DNA of 46,425 nucleotides from Prevotella sp. (GTDB lineage: Bacteria; Bacteroidota; Bacteroidia; Bacteroidales; Bacteroidaceae): contig JAGCNO010000125.1 in assembly GCA_017645905.1 (NCBI GenBank), positions 1 to 46,425 of the forward strand, written 5' to 3'. This document shows, one piece after another, positions 7,454 to 44,528 of the stretch (its first letter is position 1; every line of letters begins with the position of its first letter). The position numbers and the translations under genes are program-made. The notes below the pieces were generated by a model. The model saw only the letters and a list, made by a program, of their open reading frames with translations, was not told where the DNA came from and searched no databases.

Positions 7454-7629
7454 AGTTTAGTATGCCTTTTCCCAAAGCATAGTACGACCTTTCTGTCAGT
7501 TTCTCCTATGGGAACTGTGAGTTTCCTTAGGAGAAACTACCAGTTTCCCCTATGGAAACTATTAAGGAACTACGTCTTTTCTATGACTTTCATCCGTTGA
7601 AACCATGAGAGTCCTTAGCTGTTTCCCTA
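7454..7629. repeat. 22-bp-period array of palindromic units (AGTTTCC...GGAAACT family)
   Basis: Three clear units start at 7498, 7520 and 7542, exactly 22 bp apart. Each is close to a 19-bp dyad, for example AGTTTCCTTAGGAGAAACT, followed by 3 bp. Weaker units keep the same register at 7454 (AGTTTAG...), 7476, 7586 (ACTTTCATCC...) and 7608 (AGAGTCCTTAG...). The sequence is unrelated to the AAAGAACGGCTT arrays elsewhere in the window, but the period is identical. Confidence 0.75.
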
Positions 7630-7676
7630 TTCATCCTCCATTTCGCCTTAAAGACCGATTGGGGTTTGTTAGATAA

Positions 7677-7710
7677 TAAGCCGTTCAAACGGAAGTGTTT
7701 GAACGGCTTA
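7677..7710. terminator. Bidirectional terminator-like hairpin
   Basis: A perfect 14-bp inverted repeat, TAAGCCGTTCAAAC and its complement, with a 6-base loop (GGAAGT). It lies between the convergent ispF and lolA genes. No long U-tract follows on either strand. Its core AAGCCGTTC is the same 9-mer as in the 22-bp arrays, and a near-identical hairpin closes the array at 39300-39330. Confidence 0.75.
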
Positions 7711-7733: not shown

Positions 7734-8336
7734 TTACCGCAGGTCGATGACTTCTGCTGAGGGGAAGTCTTTGGAGTTGAAGCGGAAAGCATCGTCGGCG
7801 AGCTTCGTCACCTTGAGGTTGGAGATGGTGAAGGTGGTCCACTTCTGCTTCTGAAGGATTTTTACTTCCGTGGGGTAGTAGGTGGACTTGTCGACGTTGA
7901 TGAACATCTCCTTCACGCCTCGGTTCTGGTCCTTGGCCGTGAGGTGGACATTGAACGTCTTGTCTGACTTGGTCATGGTGTACTTGAAGCCCTGCTTATA
8001 GAGGTTGATGAAGTTGTAGGGGTTGAGCGTCTGCAGCCTCTCAGGTGTCGGAGTGGTGACGGAGACCTCGTCGTTCTTGGCCATGTAGGTCCAGAGGGTC
8101 TTGCCGTCGAACCACATCGTAGCGGCGCTGGTCTGAGCGCAGAACATCTGTCCCTTGACGGCGATGCTGCCGCTGGCATTACCAAACTGGGCGCTGCTCA
8201 TGGTGAAGTCAGCCTTGACGCCGTCCTTGGCACTAACCGTGGCGGCGCACTTGTCAAGCACTTCCTTGGCGGTTTGCGCTCCTACCGGGCAAAAGAATAA
8301 AGAAAAAATAATAAATAATAAATTGATTCTTTTCAT
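7734..8336 (-). CDS. lolA: LolA-like outer-membrane lipoprotein carrier protein
   Basis: 200 residues with a signal peptide (MKRINLLFIIFSLFFCPVGA). The mature protein has the LolA/LolB half-barrel pattern: AKEVLDKCAATVSAKDGVKA at the N-terminus, GQMFCAQTSAATMWFDGKTL in the middle and the late strands ending DFPSAEVIDLR. LolA carries lipoproteins across the periplasm. In Bacteroidetes, proteins of this DUF4292/LolA-like type are common and the exact cargo is often unproven. It is 44 bp downstream of the yigZ-family gene on the same strand, so probably co-transcribed. The gap contains a GTCGTTTAGTCGTTTT short direct repeat. No lipobox is present, consistent with a soluble periplasmic carrier. 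Confidence 0.8.
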   Translation of the reverse strand: MKRINLLFIIFSLFFCPVGAQTAKEVLDKCAATVSAKDGVKADFTMSSAQFGNASGSIAVKGQMFCAQTSAATMWFDGKTLWTYMAKNDEVSVTTPTPERLQTLNPYNFINLYKQGFKYTMTKSDKTFNVHLTAKDQNRGVKEMFINVDKSTYYPTEVKILQKQKWTTFTISNLKVTKLADDAFRFNSKDFPSAEVIDLR

Positions 8337-17129: not shown

Positions 17130-17160
17130 TTCAAAAACATTGAGCCGGTCAGCCCCATAG

Positions 17161-17248
17161 AAAGAACGGCTTTTTCCCATCAAAAGAACGGCTTATTCGA
17201 ATGGAAAGAACGGCTTAATCTCATCGAAAGAACGGCTTATTCGCCAAG
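17161..17248 (+). repeat. 22-bp-period array, AAAGAACGGCTT family, locus 1 (4 units)
   Basis: GAACGGCTT starts at 17164, 17186, 17208 and 17230, exactly 22 bp apart. Each unit is AAAGAACGGCTT plus [AT][AT]TC and about 6 variable bases (CCATCA, GAATGG, TCATCG, GCCAAG). The array lies 31 bp after the stop of the multidomain glycosidase and about 85 bp upstream of the korA promoter. Confidence 0.92.
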
Positions 17249-17415: not shown

Positions 17416-19257
17416 ATGGAAGTAAAAGAACTGGAACAAGTAGTTGTCCGGTTTTCCGGAGACTCCGGCGACGGTATGCAGCTCGCCGGAAACATTTTTT
17501 CCACGGTGAGCGCCACCGTGGGTAACGGCATCTCCACATTTCCCGACTATCCCGCCGACATACGTGCCCCGCAAGGGTCGCTGACGGGTGTCTCAGGATT
17601 TCAGGTGCACATCGGTGCGGGTAAGGTCTATACGCCCGGCGACAAGTGCGACGTGCTGGTGGCCATGAACGCTGCCGCACTGAAGACTCAGTATCGCTAC
17701 GCCAAACCCGGCGCCACCATCATCATCGACACCGACTCCTTCGGCCCGAAAGACCTGGAGAAGGCGAAGTTTGCCACACCCGACTACCTCGGCGAGATGG
17801 GCATCGACCCCGACCGCGTCATTCAGTGCCCTCTCACAACGATGGTAAAGGACGCCTTGGCCGACTCAGGCATGGACAACAAGGCCATGCTGAAGTGCCG
17901 CAACATGTTCGCACTGGGACTCGTCTGCTGGCTCTTCGACCGCGACCTGAACCTGGTGGCCAACTTCCTCCGCGAGAAATTCGCCAAGAAGCCAGCCATC
18001 GCCGAGGCCAACATCAAGGTTATTCAGGCCGGATGGAACTATGGACACAACACCCACTCGTCGACGATGAATGTCTATCGCGTCGAGACGAAGGTAAAGG
18101 AGCCGGGCCGATACATGGACATCACAGGCAACAAAGCCACGTCGTATGGTCTCATCGCCGCCGCCGAGCGCGCCGGGCTGAAGCTGTTCCTGGGCTCCTA
18201 CCCCATCACGCCGGCCACCGACATCCTGCACGAGCTGTCGAAACACAAGTCGTGCGGCGTCATGACTGTTCAGTGCGAGGACGAGATATCGGGTGCCGCC
18301 TCGGCCCTCGGTGCTTCGTTCGCCGGAGCCCTGGGCGTGACCAGTACTTCCGGCCCCGGCATCTGCCTGAAGAGCGAGGCCATGAACCTGGCCGTCATCG
18401 ACGAGCTGCCACTGGTCATCGTCGACGTGCAGCGCGGCGGACCCTCGACAGGTCTGCCCACAAAGAGCGAGCAGACCGACCTGCTGCAGGTGCTCTACGG
18501 CCGCAACGGCGAGAGCCCCATGCCGGTCATCGCTGCCCTCCATCCCTCCGACTGTTTCTACGCTGCATACGATGCTGCGAAGATGGCCCTTGAGCACCTC
18601 ACGCCTGTCGTGCTGCTCACCGACGCCTTCGTAGCTAACGGTTCTGGAGCCTTCAAGCTCCCGGCATCGATGGACGAGCTGCCCGCTATCCATCCCCACT
18701 ACGCCACGCCTGAAATGAAGGGTAACTACACACCTTACTTCCGCGACGAGGAGACAAAGGTGCGCTACTGGGCCATCCCCGGACAGGAGGGTTACACCCA
18801 CATCCTCGGCGGCCTGGAGAAGGACGGCAAGACGGGAGCCATCAGCACCGACCCGGAGAACCACGATGAGATGTGCCGTCTGCGTGCCGAGAAGGTGGCC
18901 CGCATACCAGTACCCGACCTCGTCGTAGAGGGTGACAAAGACGATGCTGACCTGCTCATCGTGGGCTTCGGCAGCACTTATGGACACCTCTTCTCCGCCA
19001 TGGAGGAGCTGCGTGCCGCCGGCAAGAAGGTCGCCCTGGCGCAGTTCCGCTTCATCAACCCGCTGCCAAAGAACACCGCCGAGGTGCTCATGAAGTATAA
19101 GAAGGTAGTCGTCGCCGAACAGAACCTCGGACAGCTCGCCGCCTATCTCCGCACGAAGGTCGACGGCTTCGTCCCCGCACAGTTCAACCAGGTGAAGGGA
19201 CAACCGTTTGTGGTAGCAGAGTTAATCAACGCATTCGAGGACATTTTAAAGAAATAA
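17416..19257 (+). CDS. korA: 2-oxoacid (2-oxoglutarate) ferredoxin oxidoreductase, fused gamma-alpha subunit
   Basis: 613 residues. The N-terminal about 190 residues are the gamma domain (VVRFSGDSGDGMQLAGNIFS), normally a separate subunit in four-subunit enzymes. Residues about 210-450 are the alpha pyrimidine-binding domain (GLKLFLGSYPITPATDILHE, STSGPGICLKSEAMNLA, GGPSTGLPTKSEQTDLLQ). The C-terminal part is the transketolase-like domain II. With KorB it catalyses CoA-dependent, TPP-dependent oxidative decarboxylation of a 2-oxoacid with reduction of ferredoxin, reversibly, in the cytoplasm. In Bacteroidetes this pair is usually the 2-oxoglutarate enzyme; substrate is assigned by family, not proven. 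korB starts 6 bp downstream. Confidence 0.93.
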   Translation: MEVKELEQVVVRFSGDSGDGMQLAGNIFSTVSATVGNGISTFPDYPADIRAPQGSLTGVSGFQVHIGAGKVYTPGDKCDVLVAMNAAALKTQYRYAKPGATIIIDTDSFGPKDLEKAKFATPDYLGEMGIDPDRVIQCPLTTMVKDALADSGMDNKAMLKCRNMFALGLVCWLFDRDLNLVANFLREKFAKKPAIAEANIKVIQAGWNYGHNTHSSTMNVYRVETKVKEPGRYMDITGNKATSYGLIAAAERAGLKLFLGSYPITPATDILHELSKHKSCGVMTVQCEDEISGAASALGASFAGALGVTSTSGPGICLKSEAMNLAVIDELPLVIVDVQRGGPSTGLPTKSEQTDLLQVLYGRNGESPMPVIAALHPSDCFYAAYDAAKMALEHLTPVVLLTDAFVANGSGAFKLPASMDELPAIHPHYATPEMKGNYTPYFRDEETKVRYWAIPGQEGYTHILGGLEKDGKTGAISTDPENHDEMCRLRAEKVARIPVPDLVVEGDKDDADLLIVGFGSTYGHLFSAMEELRAAGKKVALAQFRFINPLPKNTAEVLMKYKKVVVAEQNLGQLAAYLRTKVDGFVPAQFNQVKGQPFVVAELINAFEDILKK

Positions 19258-26048: not shown

Positions 26049-27893
26049 TCACCTCCCTTTTGCGTCCTTTTTCTTAAGTTTTTTCATCCTGCGCTTGGCG
26101 TCGGCGGCATCGGGGTATAGCTCCAGCGCCTTCTCATAGTTTCGGATGGCGGCGTCGTTCATGCCCTCACGCTCGCACTCACGTCCCATGAGCACATATT
26201 CGGCAGCCAGGCGCTTCAGCGTCTCGGTCTGCTTGTCGATGTCGGCCTTCAGCGCGGCAATCTCCTCTCGCTGCCGGTTGATGATGCCCAGCTTGCGACG
26301 TATATAGCGTTGTGCCACAGGCTTTTCTATATCATAGCGGCTATGGATGGCCTTGATGAAATTGTCGAGGAACGTCTGGAAGTCGCCCTGGTCGAAGGCC
26401 ACGATAGCATCATGATACTCGCGGTCGGCCCTGCCCTCCTGCATCACTTGGTTGATGAGCAGCTGGTCGTTGTACCGACTGGCGAACTGCACCACCTCGG
26501 CACGCACGAAGATGTCCTGCTGGCGAATGGGTTCTACAAGCGTGATGCCCTGCAGCGAGGTGCAGCGCGACAGTGCCACGTAGGTCTGCCCGCCGGCAAA
26601 GGCCCCGCCGGTGAAGTCGATGCACACCTGCTGGAAGGTCAGCCCCTGACTCTTGTGAACGGTGATAGCCCAGGCCAGGCGCAAGGGAAACTGCGTGTAG
26701 GTGCCCAACAACTCCTCCTCAATCTTCTGTTCCTTCTCGTTGAAGGTGTAGCGTACGTTTTCCCACACCTCGCGCTCAACGGTGAAGTCGCGTCCGTCCT
26801 CGGTCTGGACGTCAATCATTCCGCCCTCTTCGTCAATATCGGTGATAGTTCCCAGCGTGCCGTTCACCCAACGCTTGTCCTTATCGTTCTTCACGAAGAT
26901 GACCTGAGCGCCGGGCTTCACCTGCAGCTCCATAGGTGTGGGCATGGCCGACTCGGGGTAATCGCCCTTGATGACTCCATTGAAGATGCTGGGGTTGCCG
27001 GGCAGCTCGGCCAGCCGCTGCTCGTTGATGTAGTCCACGGTGTCGCGGCGGGTGGCAAGGGTGATGCAAAGAGACCCTCCCCCAGCCCCTCCCTGTGAGG
27101 GAACAGACCCTCCCCCTGCCCCTCCCTGTGAGGGAGGGGAGTAGTTACTATTGGCCGTTGAGTTTTCGGGGATAGAAGTATCTACTCCCCTCCCTACAGG
27201 GAGGGGCCGGGGGAGGGTCTGGTTGTTAATTTCCTGTAGGTCTCCCTGCGTCGCCCTATTCTGCCTGATGCGGTCGAGCATGGCGATGAAGTGGTCGTCC
27301 TTCTGTCGGTAGACCTTGCGCAGCTCAATGCTGACGAGCCGCATCTCCTGCCACACCTTCGCGTTGAAGAAATAGGCGCTCTGATAGAAGGGTCTGAGCA
27401 GTTGGCGGTCTTCCTCCTTCAGCACAGGCTCCAGCTGGTAGATATCGCCCACAAGGAGCAGCTGCTTGCCGCCGAAAGGCTCGCTGTTGCGGGTATAGAT
27501 ACGCAGCACCTTGTCAATAAAATCGATGATATCGGCACGCACCATCGAAATCTCGTCGATGATAATCAGCTCCACCTCACGTAGCAGCTTGCGCTGTGCG
27601 CTAGTGTACTTCTGGGTATCCTTGATGTGGCGGCGGTCATAGCGCGTGTCGTTGGGCAGCAAGGGGTAGAAAGGCAGCTTGAAGAAGCTGTGGAGCGTTG
27701 CTCCGCCGGCATTGATGGCCGCGATACCCGTCGGAGCGAGTATGACATGTTTCTTCTTCGTATGCTCGGCCACGTAGCGCAGGAACGTCGACTTACCCGT
27801 GCCCGCCTTTCCTGTAAGAAAAAGCGAGCGCCGCGTGTAGTTCACTATCTGGAGGGCATCCTGCCACTCCTTGTTCTGCAAGTCGAGATCCAT
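26049..27893 (-). CDS. PIF1-like superfamily 1 DNA helicase with C-terminal TPR
   Basis: 614 residues from ATG 27893; the upstream in-frame TTG at 27902 is less likely. SF1B helicase motifs in order: Walker A TGKAGTGKST (about 27-36), motif Ia APTGIAAINAGGATLHSFF, Walker B IIIDEISMVRADIIDF, motif III LVGDIYQLEPV, then a late UvrD_C_2 region AWAITVHKSQGLTFQQV and YVALSRCTSLQG. A C-terminal coiled-coil and TPR-like tail (RNYEKALELYPDAADAKRRM) ends the protein. Such helicases act in replication, recombination or G-quadruplex unwinding in the cytoplasm; the precise role is unknown. About 50 residues (about 224-276) are an in-frame repeat element inserted between the two motor domains, at 27065-27225. 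The next gene downstream is the convergent-free DUF4468 promoter region. Confidence 0.9.
   Translation of the reverse strand: MDLDLQNKEWQDALQIVNYTRRSLFLTGKAGTGKSTFLRYVAEHTKKKHVILAPTGIAAINAGGATLHSFFKLPFYPLLPNDTRYDRRHIKDTQKYTSAQRKLLREVELIIIDEISMVRADIIDFIDKVLRIYTRNSEPFGGKQLLLVGDIYQLEPVLKEEDRQLLRPFYQSAYFFNAKVWQEMRLVSIELRKVYRQKDDHFIAMLDRIRQNRATQGDLQEINNQTLPRPLPVGRGVDTSIPENSTANSNYSPPSQGGAGGGSVPSQGGAGGGSLCITLATRRDTVDYINEQRLAELPGNPSIFNGVIKGDYPESAMPTPMELQVKPGAQVIFVKNDKDKRWVNGTLGTITDIDEEGGMIDVQTEDGRDFTVEREVWENVRYTFNEKEQKIEEELLGTYTQFPLRLAWAITVHKSQGLTFQQVCIDFTGGAFAGGQTYVALSRCTSLQGITLVEPIRQQDIFVRAEVVQFASRYNDQLLINQVMQEGRADREYHDAIVAFDQGDFQTFLDNFIKAIHSRYDIEKPVAQRYIRRKLGIINRQREEIAALKADIDKQTETLKRLAAEYVLMGRECEREGMNDAAIRNYEKALELYPDAADAKRRMKKLKKKDAKGR
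27065..27225 (-). repeat. In-frame GGGAGGGG inverted-repeat element in the helicase gene
   Basis: The arms are AGACCCTCCCCC-type sequences at 27072-27104 and 27105-27140 (two partial left copies) and a complementary right arm at about 27182-27222. The middle is about 40 bp of unrelated sequence. The coding strand reads LPRPLPVGRGV, then SPPSQGGAGGGS and again VPSQGGAGGGS. The left arm is duplicated, which suggests later expansion. Confidence 0.85.
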
Positions 27894-27926: not shown

Positions 27927-28358
27927 TCAGGAATTAGTCCTTTTGCCCTCTAACCAATTCTCCATTCTGATGTCCTTAATATTCTCAAAATCCTTCACAT
28001 TCTCCGTCACCAAAACCATTTTCTTAGCCACGGCAGTACAGCCTATCAGCAGGTCGAACTCACCCGTGGGTTTACCTGCCAATGTCAATCGTGCCCTCTC
28101 CTCGGCATAGAGGTCAAAAATGGGGGCAATGGGCACAACGGTAATGGCATTGAAGAATTCCTTCATAGGCTGTTCTTTATATTTCGGACCACCTTTCAAT
28201 TGTCCCAACACCTTACCATACTTCAGCTCAGCAACAGTCATTTCAGAAATACAGCAGTTGTCAAAGCCAACTGCATTGATACACTCCCTCACATCAAACT
28301 TGTCGCGAAGCCAGCATATGCATATACATGTGTCAAGAAGGTATTTTTGTCGTGTCAT
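27927..28358 (-). CDS. vapC: PIN-domain toxin (VapC family)
   Basis: 143 residues. PIN-domain ribonuclease pattern: first acidic residue in KYLLDTCICICWL, the second in ISEMTVAELKYGK (Glu), and a late Asp/Glu cluster in GEFDLLIGCTAVAKK, followed by LVTENVKDFENI. VapC toxins cleave tRNA or rRNA and are held inactive by the antitoxin. The ATG overlaps the stop of the upstream gene by 4 bp (ATGA), as expected for a co-translated toxin-antitoxin pair. The first conserved Asp is present, so the enzyme is probably active. Confidence 0.9.
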   Translation of the reverse strand: MTRQKYLLDTCICICWLRDKFDVRECINAVGFDNCCISEMTVAELKYGKVLGQLKGGPKYKEQPMKEFFNAITVVPIAPIFDLYAEERARLTLAGKPTGEFDLLIGCTAVAKKMVLVTENVKDFENIKDIRMENWLEGKRTNS

Positions 28359-28630
28359 AGTTCGTCCCAGATTTTGTCCCTATTACTCTTTACATGGCGT
28401 CCGTCCCTGATTAGTTTGTTCAGCTCATCGACATCCATGAAATACTCGTCACTCCACATACCAGCAAAGTCATCGGCAGTGTACTTTTTCTTCCGGGGCT
28501 TCTTCCCAACCACGGCGGGCTTCAGCGCATCACTCAGTTTCTTGATGAGCGCCAGCTTTACTTCATTGCCCGAGTCCTTGATTAGTTCCCAATAACTCTC
28601 GGTCTCTCGTTTTAGTGCAATAGTAGTCAT
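28355..28630 (-). CDS. Antitoxin of the PIN-domain toxin
   Basis: 91 residues from the ATG at 28630, which lies 30 nt after the promoter -7 element; the ATG at 28690 overlaps the promoter and is rejected. The N-terminal half is helical (ESYWELIKDSGNEVKLALIK), the middle basic (KKPRKKKYTADDFAGMW), and the C-terminus acidic-to-basic (DELNKLIRDGRHVKSNRDKI). The sequence does not match a familiar DNA-binding antitoxin family by eye; the assignment rests on the small size, the promoter and the 4-bp overlap with the toxin gene. Autoregulation at 28661-28690 is typical for such pairs but not shown. Confidence 0.82.
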   Translation of the reverse strand: MTTIALKRETESYWELIKDSGNEVKLALIKKLSDALKPAVVGKKPRKKKYTADDFAGMWSDEYFMDVDELNKLIRDGRHVKSNRDKIWDEL

Positions 28631-28660
28631 AATCTGTGTGTTAATTTGGTTCTTAGGCTG

Positions 28661-28690
28661 CAAAGATACAACATTTTTGCGAGACAGCAA
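28661..28690 (-). promoter_or_regulatory. Promoter of the toxin-antitoxin operon 1
   Basis: On the minus strand, TTG at 28690-28688, a 19-bp spacer, then TATCTTTG at 28668-28661. Confidence 0.8.
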
Positions 28691-28747
28691 AAGATTCCGA
28701 TAGTTTTTTCAGAATGGCCATACATACAAGATTTGTATACATAGTTT

Positions 28748-28854
28748 AAGCCGTTCGAACCCTGAGAAAGAACGGCTTATTCGATTGGAAAGAACGGCTT
28801 ATTCGAGTGGAAAGAACGGCTTTTTCAAACGGAAAGAACGGCTCTTTCTCCGGA
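28748..28854 (+). repeat. 22-bp-period array, AAAGAACGGCTT family, locus 2 (4 units plus one inverted)
   Basis: GAACGGCT starts at 28770, 28792, 28814 and 28836, exactly 22 bp apart. An inverted core, AAGCCGTTC, at 28748 keeps the same register (22 bp before 28770) and can pair with the first direct unit as a hairpin. Variable hexamers are GATTGG, GAGTGG, AAACGG and TCCGGA. The array lies between the end of the PBP1A gene and the toxin-antitoxin promoter. Confidence 0.92.
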
Positions 28855-28874: not shown

Positions 28875-31319
28875 TCACTCGGCTGTTTCTTCCTGAATAT
28901 CAGCGGGTTCCGGCTGCGGCTCGGGTGCTTCTTCGGGCGTCTCTTCTGGCAGCTCGTCGTAGTCGTCGAAGAAGGTGCCCAGTGAGAGGCTGTCGAGCAG
29001 GTCGATGTCGGGTGCTGCGTAGCCCGCGCACTCGTAGATGTCGGGAGTGATGGAAGGGTCGTGAGGCGGGGCGAACTTCGCACGGTAATGGTGGAAGGTG
29101 GGGTCGGAAAGCACTTGTTCAAAGAAGCGCCCGCAGATGGGCAGTGCCGTACGGCTGCCCTGGCCCAGCTGTCCGGTGCGGAAGTGTATGGCACGATATT
29201 CGCCGCCTACCCATGCTCCGCAGACCAGACGCGGTGAGACACCCATGTACCAGGCGTCGCTGTGGTTGTTTGACGTGCCAGTCTTTCCGCCGAAGTCGGT
29301 GTCTTCAAACTGGCGGACGTACTGCCACAAGCGGTGGCTGGTGCCGCCTGGCTCGTGGAGTCCGGCCATGAGCATCTGCTGCATGAGGAAGGCCGTGCGG
29401 TAGGTCAGGGCCGAGTGTTGCTCGTTGGGCGCACGGTAAATCTCGTGGCCGTCGCGGTCGAGAATGGCGGTTACAAACTGTGGTTCATGAGCCATGCCGT
29501 CGTTGACCACCGTGGAGTAGGCGTTGAGCAGCTCCAGCAGGTTCACGTCGCTGGCACCGAGCACCATAGCGGGCGTCTGCTCGAGCTTGCTGTGTATGCC
29601 CATGTCGCGGGCCGTGGCGGCAATGTTGCTGATGCCCATCTCCTGGCCCAGACGGGCAGCGATGCTGTTCACGCTGCGGGCGAAGGCGGCCTTCAGCGTC
29701 ATGTTCGCCCCGGTGTAGTAACCGTTGGCGTTCGTCGGAATCCAGTATTTCGGATGTTTGCTGTTCCCGTCTAACCGGAGGGCGAAGTAGCTGTCGCGGC
29801 GGTGCTCACAGGGCGTGCAGCCGCGCTTCATGGCCTCGGTGTAGACGAAGAGCTTAAACGTAGAACCAGGCTGGCGCTGCGCCGTCACCTTGTCGTATTT
29901 CCACGTTCTGAAGTCGAGGTCGCCCACCCAGGCCTTCACCTGACCCGTGTTGGGCTCCAAGGCCACGAAGCCGCAATGCAGGAAGCGCACCATGTAGCGG
30001 ATGCTGTCGAGGGTGCTCATCTGGCGCTCGATAGGTCCGTCGTAACTGAAGAGCTTCACCGTGTGAGGCTTGTTCAGATAGTAGTTGACGGAGTCAGGAC
30101 TGTCGGGGAAACGGTTCTGCAGATGCTTATAGATGGGCAGACGCTGGGCGATGTTTTCTATGAAGCGGGGAATCTCCTGATAGTGCTCGTCCTGCCAAGG
30201 GTTCATGCCGCGCCAGTGCTCGTCGAAGCTCTTCTGCAGGCTGCGCATCTGCTCCAAAGCAGCTTCCTCGGCATAGTGCTGCATGCGGGTGTCGAGGGTG
30301 GTGTAGATCTTTAGGCCGTCGGTGTAGATGTCGTAGCCGTAGTCGTGGCACCACTGGCGGATGTTGTTCTTCAGCGCCTCGCGGAAGTAGTCGGCGTCGC
30401 CGTCGTAGGCGTTCTCCACGCTGTAGTCGAGCTTGATGGGCTGCTGCTTAAGCGAGTCGGCCTCCACGCTGCTGAGGTGTCCGTGGGCCACCATGTTGTC
30501 GAGCACCACGTTGCGCCGCAACATGCTGTTGTCGGGGTTCAGACGGGGATTATAGTAGGTGGTGGCCTTGAGCATGCCTACAAGGATGGCCGACTGCGAG
30601 GGTGTGAGCTCTGAGGGGCGTATGCCGAAATAGGTCTTGCAGGCCGTCTTGATGCCGTAAGCGTTGGAGCCGAAGTCCACCGTGTTGGCATACTTCGTGA
30701 GTATCTCCTCCTTCGAGAAATGCCATTCCAGCTTCAACGCCAGAATCCATTCCTTTGTCTTCATGATGAGCATCTTCAGGCCCGGTACCTGGCCCAGCCG
30801 TCCTGTGCTGTACTCCGTACGCATACGGAAGAGGTTCTTGGCCAACTGCTGCGTGATAGTCGATGCACCACGGGCCTCGTCGTGCAAGATATAGTCTTTC
30901 AGAGCTGCGGCGAAGGCTGGGAAATCGATACCGAAATGCCGGTAGTAACGCTCGTCCTCGGTGTCGATAAGGGCTTGCCAGAACGAAGGGTTCACCTCGT
31001 CGAATGTCACGGGCGTACGGTTCTCGCTGAAGAACTTGCCTATCATCACCGAGTCGGCACTATAGATCTCGGAAGCCTGAGCAGGACGGGTGTTGAGAAT
31101 GGTAGCCATGCTCGGTGAACGGCCGAAGAGTCCGAAGAGGTTGAAGTCTACGGAACCCAGGTAGAGGATAAACAGGACAATGAGCGATAAAAGGGCCGAC
31201 AAGCATTTCACATACCAGGGACGGCCTCGGAAAAGACTGCCATACCAGCGGGCAACGCGCTTTAAGCCACGCCACAAAAAGGACAGCGCCTTTAGGAGTA
31301 TTCTACCAATTTCTTTCAT
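28875..31319 (-). CDS. mrcA: Penicillin-binding protein 1A, bifunctional
   Basis: 814 residues from the ATG at 31319; the longer frame to 31373 is rejected because it runs through the -7 element. A short basic cytoplasmic N-terminus precedes one transmembrane helix (about 40-55, SALLSLIVLFILYL). The GT51 transglycosylase domain (about 85-250) shows DTEDERYYRHFGIDFPA and GASTITQQLAKNLFRM. The transpeptidase domain carries SxxK in PGSTFKLFVYTEA (about 485), SxN in RSVNSIAARLGQ, and KTGT in GGKTGTSNNHSDAW (about 679). It polymerises and cross-links peptidoglycan in the periplasm. The last 35 residues are a Glu/Pro-rich tail (EEAPEPQPEPADIQEE), probably disordered. All catalytic motifs are intact. 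Confidence 0.95.
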   Translation of the reverse strand: MKEIGRILLKALSFLWRGLKRVARWYGSLFRGRPWYVKCLSALLSLIVLFILYLGSVDFNLFGLFGRSPSMATILNTRPAQASEIYSADSVMIGKFFSENRTPVTFDEVNPSFWQALIDTEDERYYRHFGIDFPAFAAALKDYILHDEARGASTITQQLAKNLFRMRTEYSTGRLGQVPGLKMLIMKTKEWILALKLEWHFSKEEILTKYANTVDFGSNAYGIKTACKTYFGIRPSELTPSQSAILVGMLKATTYYNPRLNPDNSMLRRNVVLDNMVAHGHLSSVEADSLKQQPIKLDYSVENAYDGDADYFREALKNNIRQWCHDYGYDIYTDGLKIYTTLDTRMQHYAEEAALEQMRSLQKSFDEHWRGMNPWQDEHYQEIPRFIENIAQRLPIYKHLQNRFPDSPDSVNYYLNKPHTVKLFSYDGPIERQMSTLDSIRYMVRFLHCGFVALEPNTGQVKAWVGDLDFRTWKYDKVTAQRQPGSTFKLFVYTEAMKRGCTPCEHRRDSYFALRLDGNSKHPKYWIPTNANGYYTGANMTLKAAFARSVNSIAARLGQEMGISNIAATARDMGIHSKLEQTPAMVLGASDVNLLELLNAYSTVVNDGMAHEPQFVTAILDRDGHEIYRAPNEQHSALTYRTAFLMQQMLMAGLHEPGGTSHRLWQYVRQFEDTDFGGKTGTSNNHSDAWYMGVSPRLVCGAWVGGEYRAIHFRTGQLGQGSRTALPICGRFFEQVLSDPTFHHYRAKFAPPHDPSITPDIYECAGYAAPDIDLLDSLSLGTFFDDYDELPEETPEEAPEPQPEPADIQEETAE

Positions 31320-31330
31320 ATTAGAGACTG

Positions 31331-31338
31331 CAAATTTA
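31331..31338 (-). promoter_or_regulatory. -7 element for PBP1A
   Basis: TAAATTTG on the minus strand, with no TTG at the standard distance. It implies a leader of only about 8-10 nt before the ATG at 31319. Confidence 0.5.
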
Positions 31339-31432
31339 CGAACTATTTCGCAAACGAACGAAACAAAAGGCAAAAAGATTTCCCGAATGGGTTAAAAAGT
31401 GTATTATTCGCACTCAATCGGCCAAAAATGCG

Positions 31433-38069: not shown

Positions 38070-38492
38070 TTAATACTGTCGGAAATAGAATAGCAGAAAC
38101 TCTTTAGATGTATAGAGCGGGAGGCTTGAGAACTCCTCGAAATCATCTTTGTTGTTTGTTATGATGGCATCACATCCTCCCTGAAGGGCGCACTGGAACT
38201 GAAGCAGGTCTTCATAATCTGTAACAGGCTCATGGGCCAAAGCAATGTCCAGTTGTCTGCTGTTTGTGTCCAAGACGGTTATTCCCTCTCGCATGTCACT
38301 TATCAGTGACCATATTTCTTCCTTTGGGTGTTTTCTTAGGATGTAGCCCATGTTAGCGTATGAGAGATATGAGGCATACAACTCTATTTCACCACGCTCG
38401 CCCAGTTCCATTATTGCCTTAGCGTAAATGAAATCATCACGTTCCTGACCATAGTCAAGGAGAATGTTTGTGTCAAGGAATACCCTTTTCAT
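38070..38492 (-). CDS. PIN-domain toxin, second locus
   Basis: 140 residues. PIN pattern: MKRVFLDTNILLDYGQERDD (first Asp), a middle Glu in RGEIELYASYLSYANMGYIL, and DYEDLLQFQCALQGGCDAII followed by TNNKDDFEEFSSLPLYTS. This arrangement is close to the PIN_3/VapC-like toxins of Bacteroidetes. It overlaps the upstream small gene by 4 bp, the usual toxin-antitoxin arrangement. The surface-protein gene follows 49 nt downstream without a clear promoter of its own, so read-through from this operon is possible. Confidence 0.88.
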   Translation of the reverse strand: MKRVFLDTNILLDYGQERDDFIYAKAIMELGERGEIELYASYLSYANMGYILRKHPKEEIWSLISDMREGITVLDTNSRQLDIALAHEPVTDYEDLLQFQCALQGGCDAIITNNKDDFEEFSSLPLYTSKEFLLFYFRQY

Positions 38493-38791
38493 AGTCCTAA
38501 AATATGGCGTGTACGTTCATCGTCAAGCTCAACAGAGGGGGCTATCTCCTTTCGTTTTTGGAAAAGTCGTTCTATACGCGGTGAAAAAGACATGCCTGCA
38601 AGTTTTTCTGCAAGGAAATCTTCGTCTTCCTGCGTCATTGTCGGTTGTTTCTTAGCCTGAACAATCTTAACGTTGGGTATAGAACTGACGAGAAAAAGGG
38701 CCACTGCCATCTTCTCTCTGTTATCCATGCTGTTAAGGATGCCTACGTAGGGAGCCATCGGTGTTTTGGAAATGTTCAGTTCAGGAGTCAT
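38489..38791 (-). CDS. Probable antitoxin, second locus
   Basis: 100 residues, mainly helical and charged (NSMDNREKMAVALFLVSSIP, QEDEDFLAEKLAGMSFSPRI), ending DDERTRHILGL. No known antitoxin fold is recognised; the call rests on size, the 4-bp overlap with the PIN gene and the shared promoter at 38909-38939. It does not resemble the antitoxin at 28355-28630 closely, so the two loci are independent. Confidence 0.78.
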   Translation of the reverse strand: MTPELNISKTPMAPYVGILNSMDNREKMAVALFLVSSIPNVKIVQAKKQPTMTQEDEDFLAEKLAGMSFSPRIERLFQKRKEIAPSVELDDERTRHILGL

Positions 38792-39084: not shown

Positions 39085-39099
39085 ATTACTTACTTGGAG

Positions 39100-39332
39100 A
39101 AAGAACGGATTATTCCCATGGAGAAAGCCGTTCTTTCTATAAGAAAAAGCCGTTCTTTCTCGACAATTCTCTAGAGAATTGCTGGGAATAAGCCGTTCTT
39201 TCTCATGGAATAAGCCGTTCCTTCTCATGGAATAAGCCGTTCCTTCTAAAAGAGAAAGCCGTTCTTACTATGAGAATAAGCCGTTCTTACTAAAAGAGAA
39301 AGCCGTTCAAAGCGTGGGTTTGAACGGCTTAA
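39100..39332 (-). repeat. 22-bp-period array, AAAGAACGGCTT family, locus 3 (8 units plus inverted ends)
   Basis: AAGCCGTTC starts at 39125, 39147, 39190, 39212, 39234, 39256, 39278 and 39300. All intervals are 22 bp except 39147 to 39190 (43 bp), where one unit is replaced by a palindrome, AATTCTCTAGAGAATT, with one base missing. At both ends the core is inverted yet in register: GAACGGAT at 39103 and GAACGGCTT at 39322. The right end therefore forms a hairpin (39300-39330) almost identical to the terminator at 7677-7710. It lies just after the sigma factor gene. Confidence 0.93.
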
Positions 39333-39359: not shown

Positions 39360-39878
39360 TTAGACGGCTCGCCTCATGTAGCTGCGCAACTGGCGGCGGC
39401 CGGCCTGGAGGCGGTTCTCCACGGTCTTGTACTTCATCTGCAGCTCGTCGCTGATTTCCGAGACGGGCTTTTCTTCCACAATATTCATACGTAGCACGCG
39501 GGCCACAGTGCTGTCCATGCGAGCCAGGCGCTGCTCCAACAGCTCGGTGATCTGCCGGGCGGAGCAGACGGAGAACACATCGTCGGCCTGATGCATCCAA
39601 GGCGGGGCGGTGGCCAGCTGGTGCTCGTAGTCCTGCTCACGGCGGCGGCGGCGCCAGAGGTCGCGAAGCAGGTTGAGCATCGTGACGTGTACGATGGCGA
39701 AGGGAGGAGTCGAGAGTTGAGAGTTGAGGGTGGGGATCGAGAGCAACTTCAGGAACGTGGTCTGCACCACGTCCTCAGCAGTCATACGGTCACCGTGGAG
39801 CAGTCGCGTGGCCTCTTCGACCAGCGACTGCCGCTCGGCGGCGTAGTATTCTGTCAATATGGCTCTGCTCTCGTCCAC
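39360..39878 (-). CDS. ECF-like RNA polymerase sigma factor
   Basis: 172 residues. Region 2 covers about 1-85 (TAEDVVQTTFLKLLSIP, then AIVHVTMLNLLRDLWRRRRR, the promoter -10 and core-binding helix). Region 4 is at the C-terminus (KPVSEISDELQMKYKTVENR then LQAGRRQLRSYMRRAV, a helix-turn-helix). No anti-sigma or SusC/SusD pair lies beside it, so its regulon is unknown. Eleven residues (TLNSQLSTPP, codons about 50-59) come from a GAGAGTTGAGAGTTGAGGG-type simple repeat inserted between helices of region 2. It is 44 bp downstream of the sugar transporter gene on the same strand and may be co-transcribed with it. Confidence 0.85.
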   Translation of the reverse strand: MDESRAILTEYYAAERQSLVEEATRLLHGDRMTAEDVVQTTFLKLLSIPTLNSQLSTPPFAIVHVTMLNLLRDLWRRRRREQDYEHQLATAPPWMHQADDVFSVCSARQITELLEQRLARMDSTVARVLRMNIVEEKPVSEISDELQMKYKTVENRLQAGRRQLRSYMRRAV

Positions 39879-44306: not shown

Positions 44307-44357
44307 CGAATAATTTCACTTTATTTATAAAATAATGCACTGGCATCACCCTTCGGA

Positions 44358-44440
44358 GAATAAGCCGTTCTTTCTAACAGAAAAAGCCGTTCTTTCCATT
44401 CGAATAAGCCGTTCTTTCTAACAGAAAAAGCCGTTCTTTC
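44358..44440 (-). repeat. 22-bp-period array, AAAGAACGGCTT family, locus 4 (4 units)
   Basis: AAGCCGTTC starts at 44362, 44384, 44406 and 44428, exactly 22 bp apart, each followed by TTTC and preceded by AATA or AAAA alternately. The array lies between two divergent promoters, about 50 bp upstream of the GH3 -33 element and about 90 bp from that of yitT. Confidence 0.92.
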
Positions 44441-44528
44441 TCCGACGTTGCCTAAAGAGCCTTTCAAAGGGACATGACATTCAGTGAAATCTGAGGACGA
44501 TTTTTCTTTTTTTTCTTTTGTGTTTTAT

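Follow-up and report, generated by a model that had tools for sequence, protein, structure and literature searches.

The rumen Prevotella genome from which this DNA comes (G000, hereafter the source genome; 3.40 Mb in 181 contigs, completeness 87.5, contamination 5.58) contains tandem arrays with a 22-bp period that lie mostly between transcription units and recur about every 9 kb, whatever the sequence of their units. The array that drew attention to them is located in the window, by which we mean the whole 46,425-nucleotide stretch analysed (contig C174 of the source genome). It proved to be real, to belong to a genome-wide set, and to be part of something larger than first reported. The evenness of the spacing is firm in the source genome only, and it is weaker in relatives.

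Arrays of the window

The main array (39099..39330, minus strand) contains eight exact minus-strand cores and two inverted ones, and it has the highest number of exact cores among the 72 arrays counted. Copies of AAGCCGTTC start at 39125, 39147, 39190, 39212, 39234, 39256, 39278, and 39300, with intervals of 22 bp, 43 bp, and then five times 22 bp, confirming the eight copies and the single longer interval that an earlier note on this DNA had given. The inverted core at 39103 (GAACGGATT, one mismatch) lies 22 bp ahead of the core at 39125, and the one at 39322, which is exact, 22 bp past that at 39300. The 22-bp register of inverted ends described in the same note thus holds at both ends of this array. 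It did not stand as a general rule, since only 10 of the 18 exact minus/plus core pairs found at most 100 bp apart in 425 kb are separated by multiples of 22 bp (seven of the other eight are one base short, at 43, 65, and 87 bp, and one is at 23 bp), and pairs inside one array are not independent observations. The unit of this family (family A) was determined to be GAAAGAACGGCTTWTTC-NNNNN, with 17 conserved and 5 variable bases instead of the 16 and 6 proposed before. One unit is replaced by the AATTCTCTAGAGAATT palindrome module (39165..39180), making the local interval 43 bp and not 44. This perfect palindrome had been correctly recognised, but it is not unique: allowing up to one mismatch, it occurs at five places in the sampled DNA of the source genome, the window copy included. 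A chance origin of the cores in the window was excluded, as 39 matches with at most one mismatch were found against 10.8 ± 3.0 in 100 shuffles, the largest shuffle value being 20. The array ends in an inverted pair, AAGCCGTTC...GAACGGCTT (39300..39330; spacing 22 bp), located 30 bp from the 3' end of a sigma-70-like gene (39360-39878, minus strand; ECF-type by eye). It is also adjoined by a small ORF pair (38070-38791) resembling the PIN-gene pair near the 28.7-kb array; the ORF at 38489-38791 had no match in Pfam.

Three further family-A arrays, a solitary inverted pair, and an array of a different 22-bp family were found in the window. An array of four units (17154..17243, plus strand) lies 25 bp past the stop of a GH2/malectin gene and upstream of a pyruvate:ferredoxin oxidoreductase-like (PFOR) gene (17416-19257), with a promoter-like motif, recognised by eye, between array and PFOR gene. 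Another family-A array (28744..28845, plus strand), whose first core (28748) is inverted, is located 30 bp past the 3' end of a penicillin-binding-protein gene (28875-31373, minus strand). The third (44357..44441, minus strand, four units) is situated between divergent GH3 and YitT-like genes and is flanked on both sides by promoter-like motifs, also by eye. The solitary inverted core pair (7674..7709) is hairpin-like and lies 25 bp past the 3' end of an ORF (7734-8336, minus strand), and the array of a different family (7497..7561) consists of three units of GGAAACTNNNAGTTTCC-type palindromes. Two other features of the window were recorded. A PIN-domain gene (27927-28358) adjoins the 28.7-kb array within a stretch (27927-28690) that is a possible toxin-antitoxin module, and the relative G337 lacks both this stretch and the array. 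A separate dispersed palindromic repeat of about 117 bp, AGACCCTCCCCCAGCCCCTCCC..., is located at 27072-27221 and has many matches, in both orientations, in the relatives G096 and G083; its CCCCTCCCC proxy gave a spacing CV of 0.71 in the source genome, from five intervals only.

Abundance, placement, and spacing

A search of the source genome with the pattern GAACGGCTT-N(11-15)-GAACGGCTT, which allows 20 to 24 bp, yielded 532 exact core pairs, and the same pattern with N13 fixed (22 bp) also yielded 532, so that all such exact pairs are 22 bp apart; a backward-pattern control yielded 0. The peak at 22 bp, noticed before in a single array, therefore extends beyond the window (532 of 532 pairs), and the non-coding nature and one-face geometry that had been deduced from the 22-bp register were likewise supported. 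In 711 kb of this genome 68 arrays were counted, which extrapolates to about 325 genome-wide. Exact-pattern matches were present in four of 398 genus genomes, themselves a subset of a larger group: the source genome, G337 (6), G338 (2), and G135 (1), those of G338 and G135 carrying other spacers. Named species genomes gave at least eight matching stretches, in three MAGs among the matches listed; these MAGs are labelled Prevotella or Bacteroidaceae and come from rumen, sheep abomasum, and yak reticulum. Congener DNA that had not been selected for arrays (399 kb in 49 loci, comprising 20 stretches and 29 PFOR loci) contained six arrays of period 22, in five loci, and at most three at any other period from 17 to 29, so that most congeners have few arrays compared with the dense set of the source genome. 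Six genomes from other families of the order, 100 kb in total, had no array at period 22 and two at 23, both in one genome; these two, of ACCTCACAATCTTGTCAATTTTT type, are located at 8223 and 9625 of locus L200, 1.4 kb apart. The 228-bp array had no match in the phages and plasmids collections and the exact pattern had none in viral_contigs, and a phage or plasmid origin was rejected on these results.

Gene context was obtained with a codon-usage gene caller. The mean overlap of arrays with predicted genes was 5%, and 65 of the 68 arrays were mainly intergenic, more than half of the array lying inside a gene in the other three. Among the 64 arrays with both neighbours, gene orientations (++ 19, -+ 19, -- 16, +- 10) are close to the intergenic baseline (++ 59, -+ 50, -- 68, +- 24): arrays ignore gene orientation. 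The -7 promoter consensus of Bacteroidales is TAnnTTTG. For genes that begin beside an array and read away from it (73 starts), this motif separated the array from the start codon in 51 cases, one of which had a further copy on the far side; in nine it was on the far side only and in 13 it was absent, its background in convergent gaps being 0.0004 per bp per strand. Arrays are thus mostly located between transcription units. Neighbouring 3' ends lay at a median distance of 52 bp (n = 55) and neighbouring 5' ends at 166 bp (n = 73). Array size is bounded: length was 5.0 ± 1.3 units with a maximum of 9.7 (72 arrays), and no run of seven consecutive exact cores occurs anywhere in the source genome.

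Spacing was determined for 22-bp arrays of any sequence in the 711 kb, using within-contig intervals only and merging arrays less than 500 bp apart. The 68 arrays provided 46 intervals with a mean of 8.89 kb and an SD of 2.41 kb (CV 0.27; minimum 4.1 kb, maximum 13.8 kb). When sites were drawn at random from the predicted intergenic regions (223 regions, each 120 bp or longer; 5,000 simulations), the CV was 0.79 and never fell below 0.49; 13.1 intervals shorter than 4 kb and 7.4 longer than 14 kb were expected from this null, and none of either was observed. Across detection thresholds of 0.60-0.74 the CV was 0.27-0.40, against 0.90-0.93 for a uniform null, with four and one intervals shorter than 4 kb at the two laxest thresholds against 21.5 and 19.4 expected. 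Intervals between two family-A arrays (28; CV 0.27) and those involving a non-A array (18; CV 0.29) were similarly regular, and even spacing in the source genome is independent of the sequence family. Eighteen contigs taken blind to content, two of which (C50 and C80) were extended later, gave a CV of 0.29 from 15 intervals. Contig ends do not enter these intervals, and two long stretches there, of 20.5 kb (C2) and 19.4 kb (C6), contain no array; two more, in C17 and in the window, contain weak sub-threshold arrays (at 7.5-7.7 kb in the window). After palindrome filtering the CV of the source genome was 0.70 (p 0.012), because the filter drops many family-A arrays. Other repeats used as spacing controls provided five, one, and three intervals, too few to compare.

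In the relatives, G337 showed a mean of 11.4 kb and a CV of 0.57 (14 intervals, p 0.035; with less sequence, eight intervals and p 0.14), and a CV of 0.21 after palindrome filtering (six intervals, p 0.002). In G096 the mean was 18.9 kb and the CV 0.28 at the main threshold (six intervals, p 0.0013), with CVs of 0.47 and 0.65 at laxer thresholds (p 0.02 and 0.09) and two unequal intervals left after palindrome filtering. The corresponding p values were 0.11 in G016 and 0.66 in G024.

Unit sequence, turnover, and interpretation

Some relatives carry 22-bp arrays built from other unit sequences; the period is kept, and so is a base-centred dyad in all but one species. Under a strict filter, the 711 kb of the source genome contained 66 arrays at period 22, none at 19, 20, 23, 25, or 26, two at 24, and 13 at 21; a laxer filter gave 72 at 22, one at 19, two at 20, two at 23, eight at 24, none at 25, one at 26, and 27 at 21. 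Part of the period-21 class consists of low-complexity 7-mer repeats. A separate 21-bp-period repeat with GACGTAGTTT-like words was also seen, at L049 578-663, L044 4589-4667, and L050 11149-11223. Units in G096 are AGTTCGCGCCGTGCGAACTGTC and TTCCCCCGGTGGGAATAATTTG; G337 has TTCCCACGGTGGGAACAAATCA, CTTAGCACATCTAACTAGCATA, and others, and G275 has GGCAGCGGCCGCTGCCAATGAT, which the unit of G083 resembles. The sequence family can even switch within one array with the register kept (C11 of G096; C23 and C50 of the source genome). What they have in common is one base-centred palindrome per 22-bp unit, in many cases accompanied by an apparent, weaker dyad at a distance of 11 bp. In a selection-corrected test on pooled arrays, using column shuffles, base-centred complementarity in the source genome was 0.74 versus 0.54 in the null (n = 64; z 17.5), and base-centred dyads were also detected in its non-A arrays (11 arrays; z 8.3), in G337 (15; z 10.0), in G096 (9; z 8.1), and in seven other arrays (z 3.3). 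Even-centred dyads were far weaker (source genome 0.58 versus 0.53, z 3.9; its non-A arrays z 2.6; z 0.2 to 0.6 in the remaining groups other than G024). The exception is G024, whose six arrays have even-centred dyads (z 4.4) and no excess of base-centred ones (z -1.1). Taken singly, 25 of 67 arrays of the source genome and 6 of 12 of G337 were significantly palindromic; the outer spacer positions of family A gave no convincing covariation.

Array positions were not conserved at the loci tested. G337 is the nearest of the 398 genomes by PFOR protein (96% identical), and in it the segment holding the 44357 array (44332..44514) is absent and the flanks join directly. This is the one empty site in a relative, and by eye there was no target-site duplication at its junction, the sole one examined. 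In the same region G337 carries a different 22-bp array of its own, at about 61.9 kb of its contig C110, on the opposite side of the sigma-factor gene. Upstream of PFOR an array was present in one of 29 relatives, G356, and its sequence is different; two of the 29 stretches examined were short (256 and 318 bp). In the upstream sequences inspected by eye the neighbouring gene seems different, and a conserved array position upstream of PFOR was rejected accordingly.

Copying of the arrays was evident at two scales. A GC-rich module of 44 bp, GCGCTCGGCGACGAAGGAGACGCTTGCG..., ends at the core start (GAAC...) and in most copies is inserted exactly between GAAA and GAACGG of the unit; as 44 is twice 22, it keeps the register. 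It was located in C23, C2, C16, C20, C27, C50, and C100 of the source genome. An array-plus-module cassette from another MAG (L116) gave at least 22 matches in the source genome that span both parts over at least 120 bases, and those listed have identities of 69-94% (20 of them at least 80%), variable spacers included. This recurrence indicated that whole arrays are copied. L116 and L113, both from other MAGs, share mainly arrays with the source genome and not neighbour genes, with short partial matches outside the arrays. Since all five variable bases are identical in 23% of 75 adjacent unit pairs versus 3% between contigs, local duplication also occurs. The end motifs CTCAGACTTT/AAAGTCTGAG and CGGAGAAA recur, by eye, in part of the arrays, and no common leader, tail, or terminal repeat spanned 57 aligned arrays containing at least one exact core.

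We tentatively favour, at somewhat less than an even chance, the reading that the arrays serve as architectural or topological nodes, placed at even distances and bound by a putative dimeric protein. Each array would offer about five two-fold-symmetric protein sites on a 22-bp lattice, and with a repeat of about two helical turns these sites all face roughly the same side of the helix. The nodes, which recur between transcription units at distances of about 9 kb, would be occupied by a dimeric DNA-binding protein, or by a few such proteins, assembling cooperatively and serving to bridge, anchor, or limit the spread of supercoils at regular intervals; selection, and not copying, would presumably set the spacing. 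The 22-bp period, the dyads, the intergenic placement, the bounded size, and the even spacing, all of them computed features, are consistent with this reading, and evenness across unrelated sequences suggests a role per chromosome length. A search for an array-binding protein found none, and several arm sequences coexist within one genome (G337, G096), which is awkward for a single sequence-specific protein. Possible, though doubtful, is that the arrays act as a sequence-independent chromosome ruler, in which 22-bp dyad lattices stand at near-constant distances (about 9 kb in the source genome, perhaps 11-19 kb in two relatives) and their sequence is freely renewed. Such a ruler would delimit topological domains of regular size, and it would evolve together with the protein that binds it.

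The main rival to the architectural reading, somewhat less likely in our judgement, is a selfish, non-autonomous minisatellite or MITE-like cassette that copies itself between intergenic sites, with evenness arising because copies saturate the genome and exclude one another (through target immunity or a supercoiling-domain limit) and not because of a host function. It accounts for the recurring cassettes and the clean empty site in G337 at least as well as the architectural reading does, and it agrees with the end motifs of some arrays, with the spacers shared by neighbouring units, and with many copies in one species and hardly any in the other genomes that were searched. Because whole cassettes are copied, the arrays might even be decay products of one transposon, the outcome that the earlier note had named as refuting its reading. 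However, the aligned arrays have no common ends, no target-site duplication was seen at the junction inspected, array size is bounded, and spacing is equally even between different sequence families. That the evenness is a by-product of assembly or operon length, and the arrays neutral tandem repeats, seems improbable: the genome is in many contigs and repeats can break contigs, but the intervals were taken within contigs, the blindly taken contigs agree, and predicted intergenic regions fail to reproduce the spacing.

Equally little credence is given to bidirectional terminators or RNA hairpins at gene ends, acting as RNA. The shorter distance to 3' ends is in line with them, and the inverted end pairs at 28748, 39300-39330, and 7678 resemble terminator stems. 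One array each of G337 (z -8.7), G096 (z -3.2), and G024 (z -2.1) also folded better than shuffles. Against this, shuffled sequences folded as well as the eight family-A arrays tested (z -1.05 to +1.86), which led us to disfavour a single-strand or RNA structure for this family; the window had no Rfam match at the gathering score; arrays lie between divergent genes (19 of 64) about as often as intergenic regions generally do (50 of 201); and the promoter motif separates most arrays from the start codon. Folding, orientation, and promoter data together favour double-stranded DNA and a symmetric protein in the source genome. Between the two options that the earlier note had offered, an array of protein-binding sites is thus a plausible candidate, and a structured RNA is opposed by family-A folding and promoter position. 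Very improbable, finally, is the spread of REP/BIME-type elements by a RAYT (TnpA-REP) transposase. The alternate-orientation clusters of intergenic palindromes resemble BIMEs, and Y1_Tnp (PF01797) scored above the cut-off in seven of nine other genomes, the relatives G337 and G096 having Y1-transposase matches. In the source genome, the array-richest sampled and 87.5% complete, the best score was 20.7 bits, below the cut-off of 23, and RAYT was disfavoured as driver for this reason; the constant period and the lack of stable hairpins in the tested family-A arrays also argue against it.

To our knowledge, it is an open question what determines how large bacterial chromosomal domains are. If the arrays mark domain borders or anchors, this question would become testable in one organism at known, regular sites. 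If they are selfish, they would represent an unusual saturation with exclusion acting between unrelated sequences. In both cases, bacterial arrays that change their sequence but not their period offer a parallel to satellite DNA; in eukaryotic centromere satellites the letters change and the function is kept.

Comparison with known systems

The closest described element is BrickBuilt of Porphyromonas gingivalis, a species that belongs to the order Bacteroidales. BrickBuilt is a minisatellite-containing MITE with a 23-nt repeat (PMC4596501). As far as the accessible part of that source describes it, it is similar to the arrays of the source genome in consisting of tandem direct repeats dispersed between genes, with units that are about two helical turns long and made up of conserved sites plus a more variable half. 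The two differ in period (23 nt versus 22), in copy number (19 in ATCC 33277 versus an estimated few hundred), in length (1 to 22.8 repeats, with 0-6% indels, versus about five units), and in their ends, BrickBuilt having a leader and tail with TIRs and promoter activity (PMC4596501) and the arrays only short end motifs. Even spacing and dyads were not found for BrickBuilt in the text available from this source, where 'palindrom' occurs 0 times and 'evenly' once (PMC4596501). The arrays agree with BrickBuilt in being intergenic (only 3 of 68 lie more than half in a gene) and, as with a MITE, an empty site exists in a relative, at one place (44332-44514); its 23-nt period is not theirs, as the source genome has no period-23 array under the strict filter and two under the laxer one. 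The arrays seen at L200 do have the BrickBuilt period. The earlier note knew of no described element with the structure it reported; among the papers listed this still applies to evenly spaced 22-bp arrays, and BrickBuilt turned out to be related in design.

BIME/REP clusters are also dispersed, intergenic palindromic units in alternating orientations and are protein-bound, according to the portion available of PMC2817692; gyrase has been linked to BIME/REP binding (PMC12306157, in part) and REPs to TnpA-REP (RAYT) transposases (PMC8266576, in part). In contrast to them, the unit sequence here varies between species and within genomes, and the 22-bp period is constant. The iterons of R6K and pPS10 are tandem 22-bp sites, seven of them in R6K, and in iterons generally cooperative binding depends on helical phase, half-turn separation of sites having abolished cooperativity (PMC4980987, in part). 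The arrays share with them a constant spacing of about whole turns, at 22 bp. Iterons belong to a plasmid origin, where Rep proteins bind them, whereas here there are many chromosomal arrays. No Rep3 initiator (PF01051) was found in the source genome, G337, or G096, and two of ten genomes matched, in assemblies that may miss plasmids; Rep3 was disfavoured as driver given the lack of a match in the source genome. In a CRISPR array, nearly identical repeats of about 23-50 bp alternate with unique spacers that are similar to them in length. The 17 conserved and 5 variable bases of the family-A unit, with spacer words that recur, do not correspond to this pattern.

A literature search that excluded preprints and covered few subscription papers gave no evenly spaced 22-bp arrays among the matches listed, and we could not match the combination of a sequence-independent dyad lattice with the even spacing of the source genome to any described element. 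We group the arrays with dispersed intergenic repeat arrays, BrickBuilt being the nearest of these, and consider that they possibly represent a new chromosome-organising system.
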